Source: Candidatus Hydrogenedentes bacterium CG07_land_8_20_14_0_80_42_17
GTDB lineage: Bacteria > UBA8481
NCBI GenBank assembly: GCA_002780065.1
Contig: PEWQ01000158.1
Location: 1-14,128, forward strand
Direction of reading: 5' to 3'
DNA: 14,128 bases
In this document: positions 4 to 7,326 of the stretch, piece by piece
Numbering within the stretch: position 1 is the stretch's first letter
How the letters are laid out: every line of letters begins with the position of its first letter
The notes under the pieces: model-generated
Databases searched by the model: none
Seen by the model: the letters and a program-made list of their open reading frames with translations, nothing else
Told to the model about the DNA's origin: nothing
Made by a program: the position numbers and the translations under genes

Positions 4-127
4 GCGTCCATTGACGCGGAGCGCCCATTGACGCGGAGCGTCCATTGACGCGGAGCATCCATTGACGCGGAGCGCCCATTGACGCGGAGCGCCCATTGAC
101 GCGGAGCGCCCATTGACGCGGAGCGCC
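4..127 (+). repeat. Tandem array 1: seven 17-bp hairpin units
   Basis: Seven contiguous 17-bp units start at 4, 21, 38, 55, 72, 89 and 106, followed by a lone 5-nt arm at 123-127. Each unit reads arm-loop-arm-spacer: GCGYC, CATT, GACGC, GGA. Units 1 and 3 have the perfect arm GCGTC opposite GACGC. Units 2, 5, 6 and 7 carry GCGCC (one C/A mismatch) and unit 4 carries GCATC (one A/C mismatch). The right arm, loop and spacer do not vary. The array may continue left of the window. The unit is not a multiple of 3 and no gene covers it. Function is unknown. Confidence 0.95.
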
Positions 128-240
128 TGTGCCTCCATGACGAGTTATTATATTTGAAATTGCAAATTGGAAAGTGAAAAGTGCAAATTGAAAATTTTAT
201 TTCTCAAATTTTCTTTTTTCAATTTTTATCAGTTGTTAAA
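128..240. other. AT-rich non-coding spacer between arrays 1 and 2
   Basis: No plausible gene is present. The stretch is strongly A/T-rich. It holds a 9-nt direct repeat TGCAAATTG (161-169 and 182-190) and a 10-nt inverted repeat, AAATTGAAAA at 185-194 against TTTTCAATTT at 216-225. That stem is A/T only, so it is thermodynamically weak, and it is a poor candidate for an intrinsic terminator of the leftward operon. Nothing else is recognised. Confidence 0.5.
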
Positions 241-293
241 ACAGAATGTCCCATTTGACAGAATGTCCCATTTGGCAAAATGTCCCATTTGCC
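241..293 (+). repeat. Tandem array 2: about three 17-bp hairpin units
   Basis: A 17-bp period is repeated about three times. In the same register as array 1 the units are TGTCC-CATT-TGACA-GAA (247-263), TGTCC-CATT-TGGCA-AAA (264-280) and a partial third (281-293). A fragment ACA-GAA (241-246) precedes them. The outer four arm positions of unit 1 pair (TGTC with GACA) and the innermost pair is a C/T mismatch. Unit 2 keeps pairing through one G/T wobble. The array ends 5 nt from the stop codon of the leftward flavoprotein gene, so it would lie in the 3' untranslated region of that transcript. Confidence 0.85.
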
Positions 294-298
294 TTTAT

Positions 299-1555
299 TT
301 ATTTTTTTGCCGCTGACATTCCTGCTAATCTGCCGGTAGCCCACGCCCAAAAAAAGTTGTAGCCGCCAACAGCTCCAAATGCATCAAGCAGTTCTCCGCA
401 GAAATAAAGCCCGCGATGTCTGCGGCTTTCCATCGTCTTCGGATTTATTTCGGAGAGCGCCACTCCGCCCGCCGTCACTTCCGCAGAGTCATAACCTAAA
501 TAACCCGAAACAGGAAGTTCGCACCGGACAAGACAATCTATAAGCCGCTCCCGCTCAGCTCTCGTCAAATGTGCGAGCAGTCGCGACGGATTTACGCAAG
601 CAATCTTCATAAGGCGCTCAGCGAGCCGCGACGGAATTTTTCTCGAAATTAATCCGGCAACCGTAAGATTAGATTTTCTGCCGAACTCAACTGATTCTCT
701 CCATTCTTCTTCGGAAATGGAATTCCAGTCAGCTAACAGTCGGAAGTTTTTTTCCGAATTTTGAATTGCTTTAACCGCTTCATGCGAAATCTCAAGCACA
801 GCAGGACCGCTGTAGCCCCTGTGAGTAAAAAGAAAACCTCCGACTGCGAATGTCCTTTTCTTGCCGCATATTGCGGTTATTGCCGCGTTAAGCGATATTC
901 CAGCCAGTCCCGAATAAATCGGAGAATCGGACAATAGCGGAGTTAGTGCCGGAAAAGTCGGAACAATCTCATAACCAAGTTCCTCAAGCAGAGCCAAACC
1001 CGAGCCGTCACTTCCTGTCTTAGGCGCGGCTAATCCGCCGGTTGCAATGACCAGAGCATCAGCTTCTAATATTATTTTTCCATTCTCTTCAATTATCCAC
1101 TTGCCGCCTTCAGGTAAAATTCTCGTCACGCACGCGTTCATGATCATTCGAACTCCTCGGGCTTTTGCAAGCGACATCAACTTATTTCGAACAACAGCCG
1201 CTCTGCCTGACGCAGGAAAAACTTTTTCAGTTTCCAATTCGTCTGCAAGTAAAATCCCGGCTTCACATTCGAAAAATTTACGAACTGCCGGCAAAGGCCA
1301 TGACCTAACTATTTTTTTTAAAGTATTTCGAGATGAATTAGTAAAGAATTTCTTTTCATCAAGCGAGAGCGGTAAAAGATTGCATCTGCCTCCGCCTGAA
1401 ATAAGAATTTTACGGCAACCGTCATCAGTCCGTTCCACTAGTGCAACATCAGCTCCTGCGCCGGCGGCGTGAATTGCAGACATGACACCGGCGGCGCCGG
1501 CACCGATTACAGCCACGCTTCTTGCTGAACTGCTTACTCTCATTCCGTTTTGCAT
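299..1555 (-). CDS. YhiN/HI0933-family NAD(P)/FAD-dependent oxidoreductase
   Basis: The 418-residue protein matches the HI0933/YhiN flavoprotein family (usual length about 400). The N-terminus has the dinucleotide-binding GxGxxG (G18, G20, G23) with an acidic residue E41 at the end of the second strand. The family signature follows, with RKILISGGGRCN at 48-59. A mid-protein IATGG segment leads into GSDGSG, and the C-terminus has GLYFCGELLD and GGYNF blocks typical of the FAD domain. It is predicted to be cytosolic. Family members are mostly uncharacterised; some gut relatives (BaiN) reduce bile acid intermediates, but no substrate can be assigned here. The ATG lies 2 nt after the stop of the membrane glycosyltransferase gene, so it is the last gene of the leftward operon. 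A second in-frame ATG at 1543 (residue 5) is an alternative start. No clear Shine-Dalgarno is seen. Confidence 0.9.
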   Translation of the reverse strand: MQNGMRVSSSARSVAVIGAGAAGVMSAIHAAGAGADVALVERTDDGCRKILISGGGRCNLLPLSLDEKKFFTNSSRNTLKKIVRSWPLPAVRKFFECEAGILLADELETEKVFPASGRAAVVRNKLMSLAKARGVRMIMNACVTRILPEGGKWIIEENGKIILEADALVIATGGLAAPKTGSDGSGLALLEELGYEIVPTFPALTPLLSDSPIYSGLAGISLNAAITAICGKKRTFAVGGFLFTHRGYSGPAVLEISHEAVKAIQNSEKNFRLLADWNSISEEEWRESVEFGRKSNLTVAGLISRKIPSRLAERLMKIACVNPSRLLAHLTRAERERLIDCLVRCELPVSGYLGYDSAEVTAGGVALSEINPKTMESRRHRGLYFCGELLDAFGAVGGYNFFWAWATGRLAGMSAAKK

Positions 1556-1557
1556 CT

Positions 1558-3099
1558 CTACTTGCGTTTAAAAAGATAAATAGTAGGGCAAATGAAACGA
1601 GCATCGGCGCCTATAGGTGGACTATAAGATAAACCTAGAAATTGTGGAGTCCGTCTCCAAATATTGTAAATTTCAAAATCTTCAAGCTTTGCTTTAACTC
1701 CTTCGAAATCATATTCGCCGACAAGAAAATATTCCGGCTCCGTAAAAACCTTATCCGCTTGCGGACCGGTGATTCGAATAATGTGATATCGATTTACATC
1801 GATTTGTGGTAGAAAAAGCCACTGGGCAACGCCGATAGAAGTTCCTGCAGGCAGATGAGAGTGAATCCAGTCGCGAGATTCTGAATGAATTGGATACTGT
1901 TTCAATTCTTCAACCCAAGCCATGCTCCATAAAAAATTAATTATCAGCATAGCAAATAGAAAACTGCGCAATATAAGTGCGGATCTTTTTGAAAACCATT
2001 GTAATGGTGCCGGAGCTAGAAGGCATATAAAAGGAAGTAGAGGGCTCCATCTCTGCATTTGATTCAATCCCGTTGCCATCATCACAACAGCAATAGGAAA
2101 TGAAGCTAAAACAAATATTATTCCTAAACGATGCCGATGCCATAAGACAGTTGCTGCACCAATAATCCATAAAAAAATTCCTATTGGTGAAATTGACCAG
2201 ACTAATCCGTCTGATGCAACCTTGCACATTTGGCTCAATGAAGTGTAAGCATGTTTGTTGAGATTTTCTACTATGGTTACATCTCGATTAATAAGATTGA
2301 TATCAAGAAGAGCCGGATGAAATATGGGAAGCGCTAATAGAAATCCTATGACTGCCGGTATCCATATCTGCTTGAATGTAATATTAATTTTGTTCTTTGC
2401 AAACATAACACCTAAAATAGCAATTCCCATAACTGAGACTGTCACCTTTATTGCAACTGCATAAGCAAAGGTAGCTCCGACAAAGAATGAAAAAGAACGC
2501 ATCTTTTCGGGATTAGAGAGAGCCATGTCAAGCAGAATAATCGAGCAAATTACAATACATGCGGCTGGAACATCTGCAAGAAGAAAGTGGCTGTTCTGAA
2601 CATGTCCCGCGGCAACAGCTAAAAGCGCAGATGACCAATATGCAGATTCAATTCCAAAGGCGCGTTTAGCGAGAATGAATGTCATAACAACGGTAAAAAT
2701 GCCCATGAACGCTACAAGAAGTCTTCCAACAAAATAGATTTTTCCCAATTCCCCTGGATTTTGTCGATACCATTCTAAAGAAGAATGAGCTTCCAATATT
2801 CCAGTTGAATGAGCAATTAGAATTAATGCGCCATACGGCCAAAGAATGCCGGAGCCAATCTTCGGGCCGAATGATTCCGAGATAAAATCTCCATGCAACG
2901 GATTCATCTCTTTCAGCATCAAAAGATAAGAGGATTCATCGGTGCGATATGACCAACGATGAGTTCTGTCAGGTAGCCCCCAATCGAGCGCTATAAGTCG
3001 CAAGTAAATTCCTAGAATCAAGATGATGCCGGCTAATAGAGTGTTGATTACAAGACGTCGGTTGTTTGAAGAGAGCGGCACTGCTTCTTGAATATTCAT
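1558..3099 (-). CDS. GT-C membrane glycosyltransferase (PMT/GT39-like)
   Basis: This 513-residue polytopic membrane protein has the PMT/ArnT-like GT-C layout. A first membrane segment (about 16-36) ends in RLIALDWGLP. It is followed by an external loop with the acidic pair D54-E55 (YRTDESSY), the position of the catalytic Asp in this fold. A second conserved-looking block HFLLADVP (171-178) sits just before another membrane helix. Many more hydrophobic helices follow to about residue 400, then a roughly 100-residue soluble C-terminal part that probably faces the periplasm or exterior. Such enzymes move a sugar from a polyprenyl-phosphate donor to protein, lipid or glycan; acceptor and sugar cannot be read here. 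The start ATG overlaps the GT2 stop as ATGA (3096-3099). That pairing fits a donor-maker plus transferase. No Shine-Dalgarno precedes the start. Confidence 0.85.
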   Translation of the reverse strand: MNIQEAVPLSSNNRRLVINTLLAGIILILGIYLRLIALDWGLPDRTHRWSYRTDESSYLLMLKEMNPLHGDFISESFGPKIGSGILWPYGALILIAHSTGILEAHSSLEWYRQNPGELGKIYFVGRLLVAFMGIFTVVMTFILAKRAFGIESAYWSSALLAVAAGHVQNSHFLLADVPAACIVICSIILLDMALSNPEKMRSFSFFVGATFAYAVAIKVTVSVMGIAILGVMFAKNKINITFKQIWIPAVIGFLLALPIFHPALLDINLINRDVTIVENLNKHAYTSLSQMCKVASDGLVWSISPIGIFLWIIGAATVLWHRHRLGIIFVLASFPIAVVMMATGLNQMQRWSPLLPFICLLAPAPLQWFSKRSALILRSFLFAMLIINFLWSMAWVEELKQYPIHSESRDWIHSHLPAGTSIGVAQWLFLPQIDVNRYHIIRITGPQADKVFTEPEYFLVGEYDFEGVKAKLEDFEIYNIWRRTPQFLGLSYSPPIGADARFICPTIYLFKRK

Positions 3100-3986
3100 T
3101 TTTTTGAAAGATTATCTTTTTGGCGTTCCTGTGCCGGTGGAGCAGAGCCTGAAAGAAACCAAGCAGGAGCTTGAACTTCTTTTAAAGTTTCGCGAAGAAA
3201 GGTTTCATTGTCTGATATTCTAGCTCCGCGATTCAGACGCCACCGCGCTCTAATCCCCATCCACAGCACATGAAACCCATCTAAAAATCCGGCACCGGCT
3301 CGATAATGCGGAACACTAATTACATAATCATTGTCGATTCTAAATCCGAGATAAGCCAGTATGATTCCAACTTCGAATGCTCCGCTATACTTATATCCGC
3401 TGAACCATGGTAAAAGTTTAAGAAACGATTGAGCCTTCATCACTCGAAAATTAGATTCTACATCTTTGTACAAAAAGCCTCCCAAAAGGCTTGCAAAGAT
3501 AGTAAGGAAGATATTGCCTATCACTTTGTAGAAGGGATATATGCTGAAGTCTCGTCTGGCTAGCACAACGTCGATTTGACCTTGAAAAGATTCAAAGCGA
3601 TTGCAAAGAACACCAATGTATCGCGGATTGTGCTGTCCGTCGGAATCGATTTCAATGATGAGATCTTCAGGAGAAATAATTCCGCGAGTAATAAGATCAG
3701 TGACCAATGCGTAACCCTTGCGCAGAGCTGTTGATGCTCCGTTGTTACGCCGACACTGAATGACTATTGCGCGGTTATTTTTTTCTAACCAATCTTCAAG
3801 AATTATGTTTGTTCGGTCGCGAGATCCATCATTCACGGCAATGACGAGATCCGCTTCGGCTTCAATCTGTCTGATAACATCAGCGATCACATCTTCTTCG
3901 TTGTATATTGGAGTAATGACAATTCGACGAGCGTTTATCACGGGAATAGATTCAATCGACGGTTTCAAGGTAGGTGTCCGCGTCAT
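3096..3986 (-). CDS. GT2 glycosyltransferase, DPM1/polyprenyl-phosphate sugar synthase-like
   Basis: The 296-residue protein has a GT-A fold family 2 pattern. It opens with IVITPIYNEE (22-31) and continues with VNDGS (51-55) for nucleotide binding. The DxD-type metal site is IDSDGQH (113-119), and DVESNFRVM (175-183) corresponds to the acceptor-side region. A single hydrophobic stretch at about 154-172 suggests membrane association without the C-terminal TM pair of many GT2 enzymes. The likely role is transfer of a sugar from a nucleotide donor to polyprenyl phosphate for the downstream GT-C enzyme; this rests on family and context. The ATG at 3986 overlaps the cupin gene by 35 bp with no Shine-Dalgarno. 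A GTG at 3941 (residue 16) would remove the overlap and still keep the whole domain, so the start is uncertain. Confidence 0.85.
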   Translation of the reverse strand: MTRTPTLKPSIESIPVINARRIVITPIYNEEDVIADVIRQIEAEADLVIAVNDGSRDRTNIILEDWLEKNNRAIVIQCRRNNGASTALRKGYALVTDLITRGIISPEDLIIEIDSDGQHNPRYIGVLCNRFESFQGQIDVVLARRDFSIYPFYKVIGNIFLTIFASLLGGFLYKDVESNFRVMKAQSFLKLLPWFSGYKYSGAFEVGIILAYLGFRIDNDYVISVPHYRAGAGFLDGFHVLWMGIRARWRLNRGARISDNETFLRETLKEVQAPAWFLSGSAPPAQERQKDNLSKK

Positions 3987-4347
3987 CAGGATTAAATATT
4001 TCGCTTGATATTACCACTGCAGTGAGAGTTTCGGTGCCGGTGTTAATAAGAGCATGAGCTAGTCCTGGAACAATCTTGATTATGATCGGAACATCAAATG
4101 TCATTGGAATCGTAGCAGTATCTCCAGTTTCAATTTCCCGTAATTTCATCTCACCTCGGCCCGAAACCACGCAGAACCACTCTGTCTTTCTACGATGGAA
4201 ATGATGTCCTTTGGAGCGGCCGGGATATGCGGTTGTAATGAATATCTGGCCGCCTGAGGCTGAAGATATGCCATGCATAATCTCATATACCTTTCCTCGC
4301 TCATCTGCATGAACAGCAGGACGGCTGATAAGAGATTCAATATTCAT
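3952..4347 (-). CDS. Single-domain cupin, CapF C-terminal-domain / sugar epimerase-like
   Basis: A 131-residue cupin. I place the start at the ATG at 4345-4347 because it overlaps the aminotransferase TGA as ATGA, the junction used throughout this operon; an upstream ATG at 4377 would add 11 residues of no family character. DERGKVYEI (15-23), PGRSKGHHFHRRKTEWF (42-58), VVSGRGE (60-66), PGLAHALINTG (94-104) and EIFNPDDADTY (116-126) resemble the C-terminal cupin domain of CapF/WbjC, which epimerises C3 of UDP-4-keto-6-deoxy-HexNAc. The histidines H49, H51 and H98 with E56 could hold a metal. The N-terminal SDR reductase domain of CapF is absent. A QdtA/FdtA-like ketoisomerase role is the main alternative. 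Both readings place it on a 4-keto sugar nucleotide. It lies between aminotransferase and glycosyltransferase genes. Confidence 0.8.
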   Translation of the reverse strand: MNIESLISRPAVHADERGKVYEIMHGISSASGGQIFITTAYPGRSKGHHFHRRKTEWFCVVSGRGEMKLREIETGDTATIPMTFDVPIIIKIVPGLAHALINTGTETLTAVVISSEIFNPDDADTYLETVD

Positions 4348-5453
4348 TTCGCCGCAATAGCACGAATTGCTTCGCAAACTTCATCGATCTCTTCAATCGG
4401 CATGTGCGAGTAAAGCGGAAGGGAAAGCGTTCTCATTGAGAGATCCTCGGTGCGTAAGCAGACAACATCTTTCAGTTCTGTAGCGAAAGAAAGTTTATGC
4501 ACGGGAGGCCAATAATATTTTTTCGTCATAATACCGCGTTGTTCGAGTTCAAATGCCAGATGGTCTCGATCACATCCATATTCATCAGGCATTATAAATA
4601 TAGCATAATCTTTAATTGTGCTTTTCACATACTTAGCGCGATGGATTATCTGAATGCCACGCACTTTACTTAATTGCTCGTCATAATGGTCAGCAAGCTC
4701 ATTTCGTCTGGCAACCCATTTTTCAAGACTCTCTAATAATTTGAGTCCAATGACGGCATTAATTTCTTGCATTCTTGAATTCATACCATCGAAGAAGCAG
4801 TCAAGTGAACCTGGAGGATGACCGTGATTGCAGACGAGCCGCAAACGTTCGGCAAGAGCATCATCAGATGTTGTGATGATTCCGCCTTCGCCAGTTGGCA
4901 TTGTTTTAGTGGGTCCTAAACTGAAAACTTCGGCTCGGCCGAATGAACCTAGTTTTCGTCCTTTCCATTCTCCACCGAATCCGTGAGCCGCATCAAAAAA
5001 AAGCGGCACGCCTGCTCTATCGGCTATTTCTTGTAGAGCATCAATTTCCGGAGCATGTCCAAAACAATGAACAGCGACAATTGCCGAGGTAGAGGAAGTT
5101 AAAGCCTTTGAGACTTCATCCGGATCGATATTGCATCGTTCATCGCAGTCGACAGGCACGGCTTTCAGATTGTTCCAACGGAGAGCTTGATAAGTTGCAG
5201 AAAAAGTAAAAGCAGGAAGAATGACTTCAGTCCCTTTTGGAAGCACACTGAAAAGTGCAATGAGACCGCTGGTAGCGCAGGAACAACCGATAGCATGTTT
5301 CACACCGCAATATCGCGCAACTTCATCTTCAAATTTATTGACAAAAGGTCCCAGAGTTAATTGCCCTGTTCGAAATATCTCTTCAAAATTTGCGCGGACA
5401 TCATTGAATGAAGGAAGTGTCGGCTTCATAATTGGAATGCGAAAAGTAGTCAT
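4344..5453 (-). CDS. DegT/DnrJ/EryC1-family PLP sugar aminotransferase
   Basis: The 369-residue protein is a fold-type I aminotransferase of the DegT/DnrJ/EryC1/StrS family, the class that aminates 4-keto (or 3-keto) sugar nucleotides with glutamate as usual donor. Visible marks are PAFTFSAT (80-87), the PLP-ring Asp in FFDAAHGFG (D154) and the internal aldimine lysine K183 in GPTKTMPTGEGG. A C-terminal small domain contains KKYYWPPVHKL. The length is normal for the family (about 370). A strong Shine-Dalgarno AGGAGGT, 4 nt before the ATG, lies inside the end of the upstream acyltransferase gene, and the two genes overlap by ATGA (5450-5453). The neighbouring dehydratase and PglD-like enzyme suggest it converts a UDP-4-keto-6-deoxy-HexNAc to the 4-amino sugar. 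The stereochemistry cannot be read. Confidence 0.9.
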   Translation of the reverse strand: MTTFRIPIMKPTLPSFNDVRANFEEIFRTGQLTLGPFVNKFEDEVARYCGVKHAIGCSCATSGLIALFSVLPKGTEVILPAFTFSATYQALRWNNLKAVPVDCDERCNIDPDEVSKALTSSTSAIVAVHCFGHAPEIDALQEIADRAGVPLFFDAAHGFGGEWKGRKLGSFGRAEVFSLGPTKTMPTGEGGIITTSDDALAERLRLVCNHGHPPGSLDCFFDGMNSRMQEINAVIGLKLLESLEKWVARRNELADHYDEQLSKVRGIQIIHRAKYVKSTIKDYAIFIMPDEYGCDRDHLAFELEQRGIMTKKYYWPPVHKLSFATELKDVVCLRTEDLSMRTLSLPLYSHMPIEEIDEVCEAIRAIAAK

Positions 5454-6076
5454 GATGACCTCCTGGATATGATTCGCGCGGGTACTCCAACAAAAGTTTC
5501 ATTAGCTGGAATCGAATCTATTACAACTGCTCCTGCTCCGATTACAGACCATGCGCCGATATTAATCAGGGGAATAATATTGGCGCCGGTGCCGAGAAAA
5601 GCCCCCTCGCATACAACTGCCGCGCCGGCTATATGAACTCCTGGTGAAATATAGACATGATCTTCAATTCGGCAGTCGTGATCGATTGAGGCATTAGCAC
5701 AAACTATAACATTATCTCCAACGACTGCATTGGGCATGACTGTGACGTGCGGTCCGAGCCAAGTGCCGCGACCTATATGAGCTGTTGAATCTACAACAGC
5801 GGTTGAATGGATTACTGTGGTCATAGACATGATTTTTTTTAGTTTCTCAAAAATATCTTTTCGCTGTCGCATATAAGTGCATCCAAATCCTACAATAACG
5901 CTCGCAGAAGGTTCATCTGCCAATTTAGACAGATTGCCAACACACAATCGACCGTTTATTTCGCCGATTGGAATATTGTCATCGAGAAATACCGCGTCAG
6001 ATTCAGAAGGTATTGAGCCCATTATAGAGCGGCCGGTACCTCCTGCTCCAAGCACAATAATACGGGGTAAACTCAT
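5450..6076 (-). CDS. PglD-like left-handed beta-helix sugar N-acyltransferase
   Basis: A 208-residue two-domain acyltransferase of the PglD/NeuD family (usual length about 200-215). The N-terminal Rossmann-like domain opens with RIIVLGAGGTGRSI (5-18), which binds the UDP-sugar. From about residue 86 the chain shows hexapeptide repeats of the left-handed beta-helix, ending in the GVPARII block (197-203). The catalytic base is likely H133 in ASIDHDCRI. PglD acetylates the 4-amino group of UDP-4-amino-6-deoxy-GlcNAc with acetyl-CoA. Here the enzyme is encoded beside the aminotransferase that would make such a 4-amino sugar, so N-acetylation (or another N-acylation) at C4 is the likely role. It overlaps the dehydratase stop by ATGA (6073-6076) and the aminotransferase start by ATGA. 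Only a weak, distant AAGG precedes the start. Confidence 0.9.
   Translation of the reverse strand: MSLPRIIVLGAGGTGRSIMGSIPSESDAVFLDDNIPIGEINGRLCVGNLSKLADEPSASVIVGFGCTYMRQRKDIFEKLKKIMSMTTVIHSTAVVDSTAHIGRGTWLGPHVTVMPNAVVGDNVIVCANASIDHDCRIEDHVYISPGVHIAGAAVVCEGAFLGTGANIIPLINIGAWSVIGAGAVVIDSIPANETFVGVPARIISRRSS
5458..5464 (-). promoter_or_regulatory. Strong Shine-Dalgarno site for the aminotransferase gene
   Basis: On the minus strand the sequence is AGGAGGT, followed by CATC and the ATG at 5453. It is a full match to the usual anti-Shine-Dalgarno core, fixes the aminotransferase start and shows that this genome uses classical SD initiation. It lies inside the last codons of the acyltransferase gene. 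Confidence 0.85.
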
Positions 6077-7080
6077 CGAGTAAAGTAACCTTCTTCAAAT
6101 TCCATTCCCTCTGATTCAAGGTCGGATTGTTGAATGAGACTTCGGGTTTCCTCAAAAGAAATAAGGTTGTCGATAGAGTTGTATTCACGAGCTAATGCAG
6201 TCGGATATGTTTGCTGTTTCCATGGCTGAATTACAAAGTAATTATCTCGTTCTATGCACCGAGCCTGTTCCTCATCTGAAATAAGAATTTCGTGGACCTT
6301 TTCGCCTGGATAAGTTCCGATCACGGTATATTCGAATGGTTTTTCAGCGATGTCGCAAACTGCCCGAGCAATATCAATAATTCGGGCTGACGGGCAACGT
6401 CTCACTAGTGTCTCTCCGCCGATTGCATAATCGTGAGCCCAGATGACTAGTTCAACAGCTTGTTTTAATGTGAGCATAAAACGTGTCATTTCGGGATTGG
6501 TAATCGTAAGTTTTCGTCCACTATGCAGGCATGATCGAAAAAATGGAACAACCGATCCGCGTGAATTGAGCACATTTCCGTAACGAACGCAGACAAAGCG
6601 AGTTCCGCGGTTACGAGGATCTTGGTTTGCGTTTACAACTATTTTTTCCTGAAGAGCCTTAGTCAGTCCCATTACATTTACCGGTTTGACCGCTTTGTCG
6701 GTGCTGATACAGACAACACTTTCTACCCGTTCATCCAAAGCTGATGTTATGACATTGTTTGCTCCTATGATGTTCGTCATTACTGCTTCTTCAGGAAATT
6801 TTTCGCAGTGCGGAACTTGTTTCAGAGCGGCGGCGTGGAAGACTGCGTTAACACCTGACATTGCCTTTCGAACTGCATTTAAGTCGCGGATATCGCCAAG
6901 CATAAAGGTGATTCGCTCATCAGACGAAAACTTGTTGCGCATATCGAATTGCTTTTTTTCGTCCCGGCTGAAGACTCAAATTTCTCTGACTTTGGTATCA
7001 AGAAGACGTTTAACTACGTAGCGCCCGAACGACCCGGTTCCGCCTGTTACAAGAATAATTTTATCTTCAAAGTTATTCAC
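6073..7080 (-). pseudogene. UDP-HexNAc 4,6-dehydratase (CapE/WbjB/FnlA-type) interrupted by an in-frame TGA
   Basis: Read from GTG at 7080, the frame encodes 335 codons of an SDR-type UDP-N-acetylhexosamine 4,6-dehydratase, except that codon 35 is TGA (minus strand, 6978-6976). Before it stands the NAD-binding TGGTGSFG (12-19). After it the frame resumes without shift as VFSRDEKKQ. Further marks are FHAAALKQVP, STDKAVKPVN (TDK at 127-129), RYGNVLNSRGSVVPFF and PGEKVHEIL. The usual catalytic Tyr of YxxxK is Met (M137, K141), as I recall for CapE/WbjB/FnlA relatives rather than PseB. The product would start the pathway by making UDP-4-keto-6-deoxy-HexNAc. An ATG at 6942 could start a 289-residue fragment, but it would lack the NAD-binding site. 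A CGA-to-TGA change explains the stop. A sequencing error is possible; the rest of the operon is intact. Confidence 0.85.
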
Positions 7081-7101
7081 GAATGAAGATCACATAATGT
7101 A

Positions 7102-7113
7102 AATATTAATATT
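7102..7113. repeat. 12-bp AT palindrome upstream of the leftward operon
   Basis: AATATTAATATT is a perfect 12-bp palindrome about 22 bp upstream of the GTG start of the dehydratase gene. It could be an operator or part of the promoter. Such A/T palindromes also arise by chance in AT-rich spacers, so the assignment is weak. Confidence 0.35.
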
Positions 7114-7172
7114 TCACTCATGAATAATAATTATTCTAATAGATGCTGAGTTGTCAAATATTGTTTGGTGAA

Positions 7173-7307
7173 TTTTCCGAAAAAATCGACACCACCGTGT
7201 CGTAGACACCACCGTGTCGTGGACACCATTGTGTCGTAGACACCATCGTGTCGTAGACACCATCGTGTCGTAGACACCATCGTGTCGTAGTAAAAAATTT
7301 CGGAAAA
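7173..7307. repeat. 10-bp inverted repeat bracketing array 3
   Basis: TTTTCCGAAA at 7173-7182 and its exact reverse complement TTTCGGAAAA at 7298-7307 flank the array almost symmetrically, 5 bp before the first unit and 8 bp after the last. The arms could close a large cruciform or RNA stem with the smaller unit hairpins inside, or mark the ends of an inserted element. No target-site duplication is obvious. Confidence 0.6.
7188..7289 (+). repeat. Tandem array 3: six 17-bp perfect hairpin units
   Basis: Six contiguous 17-bp units start at 7188, 7205, 7222, 7239, 7256 and 7273. Each has GACAC, a 4-nt loop, GTGTC and a 3-nt spacer. All six have perfectly complementary arms. Loops run CACC, CACC, CATT, CATC, CATC, CATC; spacers are GTA except GTG in unit 2. 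Units 4-6 are identical. The register and orientation match arrays 1 and 2. It lies between two divergent operons. The period of 17 rules out a conserved coding repeat. Confidence 0.95.
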
Positions 7308-7326
7308 CTTCTCGAATGCTGTAATA

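Follow-up and report, generated by a model that had tools for sequence, protein, structure and literature searches.

Tandem 17-bp mini-hairpins with covarying arms, probably carried by REP/BOX-like interspersed elements, in one isolated bacterial lineage

Tandem arrays of 17-bp mini-hairpins occupy several dozen intergenic places in the genome of one isolated bacterial lineage. The window analysed here, a stretch of DNA of 14,128 nucleotides, corresponds to contig C91 of that genome (207 contigs, 2.39 Mb, about 87% complete) and carries three such arrays. The explanation that accounts best for them, to which a probability of roughly 60% has been assigned, is that they belong to REP/BOX-like interspersed elements in which the loop carries mini-hairpins, presumably amplified by slippage, that are kept paired on one strand, with the elements themselves putatively spread by a RAYT transposase. 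On the minus strand of the window, the module consists of a 14-nt mini-hairpin, N4C-AATG-GN4', and a 3-nt Y-N-Y linker. The features concerned are listed below.

4..119, minus strand: array 1, seven units GCGTC-AATG-GRCGC (one GATGC) with 3-nt spacers, from TRF and unit parsing
132-125, minus strand: 5' arm GCACAGGC of the enclosing REP-like palindrome, from the sequence
136-133, minus strand: 5' tag GGAG of the same palindrome, from the sequence
150..240, minus strand: AT-rich flank of the 14-bp-periodic CAATTTGCACTTTCCAATTTGC type, common to other loci
241..291, minus strand: array 2, three copies of TGTCA-AATG-GGACA, from TRF; fold z -2.3
7173..7186 and 7292-7307: left arm (TTTTCCGAAAAAAT) and right arm of an AT-rich inverted repeat that flanks array 3 and folds as an outer stem
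7188..7289, minus strand: array 3, six units GACAC-RRTG-GTGTC with TAC or CAC spacers, from TRF
7290..7311, minus strand: diverged copy of the leader GGAGTTTCCCTAAATCTTTTGCTACG, from sequence comparison

The three 17-bp arrays announced in a preliminary description of this DNA were recovered by TRF at 4-127 (7.3 copies), 241-291 (3.0 copies) and 7188-7290 (6.1 copies). The same description attributed complementary 5-nt arms to all of them, which holds for array 1, with its perfect or wobble-paired 5-bp arms, and for array 3, where 24 of 24 outer pair cells are Watson-Crick. It holds only in part for array 2, whose three copies, the third truncated, form four pairs with a mismatched A.G inner pair (TGTC-CCATTT-GACA), and which is a weak member of the mini-hairpin family. 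The leader GGAGTTTCCCTAAATCTTTTGCTACG is also found ahead of the GACAC arrays of C3, C55 and C190, and the AT-rich inverted repeat of array 3 was not seen around these other GACAC arrays. Near array 3, an epimerase-like gene of polysaccharide biosynthesis (Polysacc_synt_2; 6073-7083, minus strand) can be read through in a single frame interrupted by an in-frame TGA after about 35 codons, and its called ORF starts downstream of this codon; a pseudogene, a sequence error or recoding are possible.

The spacer is more variable than the GNA rule first proposed, which proved too narrow. Most spacers, read on the CATT strand, have the form R-N-R (GTG, GAG, GTA, GGA, GGG, GCA and AAG), some are 4 nt long, and the counts on the AATG strand are CAC 37, CTC 35, TAC 16, TCC 16, CCC 5, TGC 4, TGT 4 and, among the 4-nt forms, CCTC 9. 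Reading the GNA spacer as a C(GNA)G DNA triloop, which suited arrays 1 and 3, was rejected in view of this overall R-N-R pattern. Since CATT separates the arms on one side and the spacer on the other, units can pair across the spacer too, and the minimum-energy RNA folds are long rods, not rows of hairpins; complete CATT/AATG hairpins at the array ends favour the CATT/AATG register. Binding arrays of the CsrA/RsmE type, with GGA in the loop, were also considered and rejected, as GGA is not kept in the GACAC, GCACC and GGCGC units, and the arrays are without the kind of spacers found in CRISPR.

A search of the whole genome has revealed how widely the arrays are dispersed. With array 1 as a query, BLAST found 42 places. 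The pattern put forward in the preliminary description, CAYY(N5)GNA(N5) repeated three times, gave 27 matches against none in the reversed control, and CCATTG repeated three times at a spacing of 16-19 bp gave 91 exact matches, again against none, five or more arm types being represented; the arrays of the window are thus neither the only ones in the genome nor the only ones with complementary arms. GCGYC/GACGC is the commonest arm type, followed in this inventory by GACAC/GTGTC or GTGCC (contigs C3, C55, C91 and C190), GACGC/GCGCC (C32 and C198, probably the two ends of one array), GCACC/GGCGC (C18 and C126) and GAATC/GATTC (C14), with the TGTC arms of array 2 as a weak sixth. Several arrays lie at the end of a contig in this assembly, which suggests that such arrays probably break short-read assemblies. 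In all, 0.92 Mb of the genome was fully read, part of it picked for containing arrays, and five array places were found on 0.53 Mb of contigs picked irrespective of arrays.

Although 89% of bases are coding, 25 of 30 arrays with at least two exact tips lie wholly outside ORFs. This bears on the suggestion that the repeats encode peptides or are palindromic by accident, which can be regarded as refuted for the 17-bp family: a 17-bp unit shifts the reading frame, the arrays are outside ORFs, and the absence of control matches and the covariation described below speak against chance. What gives the suggestion some substance is that 15-bp tandem hairpins of the same genome are in long ORFs in all but one of the cases checked, as is one 18-bp CATC array on contig C89. 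Tandem 15-bp repeats within long ORFs, several of them palindromic, were recorded at L064:17202, L082:16559, L095:16701 and L061:11466.

Outside this genome, a scan of 84,980 GTDB species for CCATTG repeated three times at 17 bp, covering arms not starting in A, detected 79 stretches, in whose best units 0-3 of the 5 arm positions are paired, with a single case of 4 and none of 5; the search outside this genome yielded ten viral-contig matches besides. Within the scope of that scan, tandem CCATTG repeats exist elsewhere without the hairpin plan. The array-1 units, with arms starting in A, were not found beyond this genome among 386 genomes searched, including the single further genome from the phylum.

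The pairing of the arms was assessed in 53 arrays of at least two units, parsed without demanding pairing and including a few chance arrays. On the AATG strand, the outer pair cells comprise 683 Watson-Crick, 73 G.U, 14 C.A and 26 other combinations. A unit parse with the other strand read gives 60 C.A against 10 G.T. In the AATG reading, and in that reading alone, G.U-type combinations therefore outnumber C.A by roughly 5:1, an excess in copy count, both classes being about equal by distinct variant types, which indicates that the classes differ in the extent to which they have spread. Such a strand bias in non-Watson-Crick pairs is in keeping with one folded strand being under selection or tolerating them, and the single-stranded DNA energies point the same way, at -2.4 kcal/mol for the G.T variant in the AATG strand against -1.2 in the other. 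When 28 distinct units were compared, 90% of cells were paired and 31 showed double changes, against 9.9 (sd 2.3) in shuffles. The covariation score was 0.641 against 0.165 for shuffled data and was reached by none of 500 shuffles, a count that is not a probability because the rows are related; the signal became strongly weaker when the partner columns were slid. The arm classes differ from one another at 3-4 of 5 positions. Shuffle tests of the unit consensus of each array have low power (p about 0.1 each), and it is the covariation across arrays that is informative. Together with the genome scan, it bears out the earlier proposal of a family defined by structure, whose tip and period are fixed, whose units share one orientation and whose paired arms are interchangeable.

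The piling up of G.U-type variants on one strand could also be taken to mean that the hairpins act as RNA, with the AATG strand transcribed and the structures in 3' or 5' UTRs tuning mRNA stability or termination, or being bound by a protein through recognition of the CAAUGG tip. This is considered unlikely, even though the AATG-strand folds are strong (z -3.5, and -6.2 for the minus strand of array 3) and published REP and BOX elements are frequently transcribed (PMC3733652, PMC3049150). G.T pairs occur in single-stranded DNA too, and consequently the bias does not single out RNA. In addition, the orientation of the arrays to neighbouring genes is mixed, the upstream gene being on the AATG strand in 15 cases and on the opposite strand in 8, array 3 sits between divergent genes, and the window has no Rfam match at gathering thresholds.

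The units of array 1 occupy the apical loop of a dispersed palindrome, GGAG-GCACAGGC…GCCTGTGC on the AATG strand. Tag and arm, at 125..136 in the window, recur at dozens of loci, at each of which 5+17n bases separate them from the 3' arm GCCTGTGC; the window retains just the half that bears the tag, because the contig begins at base 1 and cuts the 3' arm. Array 1 is accordingly not an independent array but a copy, among dozens, of a REP-like element. Its flank CGCCTGTGCCTCCA is recurrent in the genome, and the AT-rich CAATTTGCACTTTCCAATTTGC-type flank adjoins the tag side of many GCACAGGC-type copies; AT-rich, 14-bp-periodic CAATTTGCACTTTCCAATTTGC repeats beside GCACAGGC palindromes (L076:5418-5693, L084:5544-5710 and many flanks) reach up to 20 tandem copies. 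Within the 0.92 Mb read, the GGAG palindrome is present in 39 copies, mostly of three arm types (GCACAGGC/GCCTGTGC, GCACGTGC/GCACGTGC and GCACGCAC/GTGCGTGC). Loop lengths are mostly 5/6, 22/23, 39, 56/57, 73, 90 and 107, that is, 5+17n, a ladder whose unit is the mini-hairpin. The shortest loops, of 5 or 6 bases, are GCCCC, GCCAC and GCCCTC, and the lengths that fall off the ladder result from 18-bp spacers or nested copies. Two loci are perfect head-to-head dimers of GGAG palindromes with a 20-nt linker, and more have decayed partners. Tag and arm are themselves found in 21-bp tandems, for example GGAGGCACAGGCTCTACGCAT (L094:5946-6001, L100:9424-9487 and L111:4457-4576), which constitute a second level of tandem growth.

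The commonest form of the proposed element is a GGAG-tagged palindrome, at times in head-to-head pairs like REPINs, with from none to at least six modules in its apical loop, so that the single strand folds as an outer stem closing either several small hairpins or one long rod. The number of modules would change by replication slippage or by recombination between identical hairpins, and pairing may have persisted owing to a role of the element as a folded single strand. Another possibility is that the arrays are a neutral by-product, with ordinary minisatellites growing by slippage at quasi-palindromes and template-switch repair perfecting the arms, a process that would require no mover and no binding partner. 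Hairpins are hot spots for slippage and for quasi-palindrome correction, each array is homogeneous in its units, spacer variants group by array and unit number is freely variable, all of which is in keeping with such a process. It has nevertheless been judged quite improbable, as it leaves unexplained the CAATGG tip and the 17-bp period across at least five arm types, the common orientation within GGAG palindromes and the excess of G.U over C.A, and CCATTG tandems elsewhere have unpaired arms.

Returning to the REP/BOX-like reading, the palindromes may have been spread, at least formerly, by one of the RAYT-like HUH transposases of the genome. Four Y1_Tnp genes are present, on contigs C131, C2, C12 and C205 (L217-L220), all of which match only the NCBIfam model for REP-associated tyrosine transposases, below its cut-off. 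The C2 gene, which runs off the contig, resembles the solved TnpArep 4er8 (E 3e-4). About 130 bp upstream of it lies a GCACAGGC palindrome, GAGG-CACAGGCG-CCA-CGCCTGTG, with a 5-base loop; the contig end cuts off the opposite side. This link between a RAYT and the arrays is circumstantial and comes from one locus, and could be due to chance, roughly estimated at 5-10%. The C131 and C12 genes are flanked by inverted repeats (GGGGTCAGGCTTGAACTTTTTTACTTTTT in C131, ATAGTTATATAGTTAT-type ends in C12), recalling TIRtrons, the IS200/IS605-type TIR-tyrosine-transposase elements. In C131, GGGGTCAG fits the published motif GGGGWSAS (PMC3733652); these TIRs are unrelated to the mini-hairpin arrays. In C205, GTAG-tagged palindromes occur within and near the RAYT-like gene. 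True GTAG palindromes form a separate family in the same genome, CGGTAGCCGCAGGCTTTAGCCTGCG (L058:13722, L061:718, L064:13032, L065:188 and others), and GTAGGGRCA-type palindromes, some in tandem, were noted at L091:2694-3309 and at the end of L256.

Comparison with known systems indicates which features are shared. With REP, REPIN and BIME elements and their RAYTs, the GGAG palindrome has in common variable stems, a short C-rich loop and RAYT genes in the same genome, and it resembles REPs in its number of copies, as a palindrome of about 20-40 bp located outside genes, and in its opposite-orientation dimers. Published REPs are short extragenic palindromes that bear a GTAG or CGTC tag and have loops mostly of 2-4 nt (PMC3733652, PMC2817692, PMC3116915), some loops reaching up to 27 bp and being self-complementary, though not tandem, with long self-complementary loops in Bradyrhizobium. 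Here the tag is GGAG instead of GT(A/G)G or CGTC, so that the element is not classed as a GTAG or CGTC REP, and 17n bases of tandem hairpins enlarge the loop, a feature not mentioned in the sections of the open-access REP literature covered. The resemblance to BOX is one of architecture alone. Around the tandem series, BOX has boxA and boxC as its ends, the element described here a GGAG palindrome, and boxB measures about 45 bp, compared with the 17-bp mini-hairpin. Like BOX of Streptococcus pneumoniae, which is a dispersed extragenic element with pairing end modules and variable tandem, self-folding boxB (PMC3049150), the arrays show pairing ends around a variable tandem series, the 5+17n ladder lying within paired arms; the published account, in the part covered, describes no boxB series with covarying arms. 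In its workings the element resembles a REP whose variable loop is of the BOX type.

The module is also present in a second form, which consists of modules with GACAC arms placed after a leader, GGAGTTTCCCTAAATCTTTTGC. On the AATG strand, this leader precedes the GACAC arrays of C3, C55 and C190 with small differences, it is followed by one unit of other arms (GACTC-AATG-GAGTT) at L095, and it stands without any unit at L078. Taken beside the GGAG palindrome, this places the module in at least two host contexts, and the GACAC, GAATC and GACGC arrays outside GGAG palindromes indicate that it is not bound to REPs. A more general reading, advanced tentatively and with low confidence, would see a family of CAATGG-tipped mini-hairpins defined by structure, with arms free to vary as far as pairing on one strand is preserved, and amplified as tandem copies in two or more host elements that are unrelated. 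If this is true, a dedicated factor, either a single-stranded DNA transposase or a hairpin-binding protein, would read the tip and the pairing and not the sequence of the arms.

The arrays unite REP palindromes and BOX-type modular arrays in one element. With one tip, one period and many arms in one genome, and with a countable ladder of units, they represent a natural experiment on the evolution of palindromic repeats, and this system would allow testing whether single-strand folding, rather than sequence, sustains such repeats.
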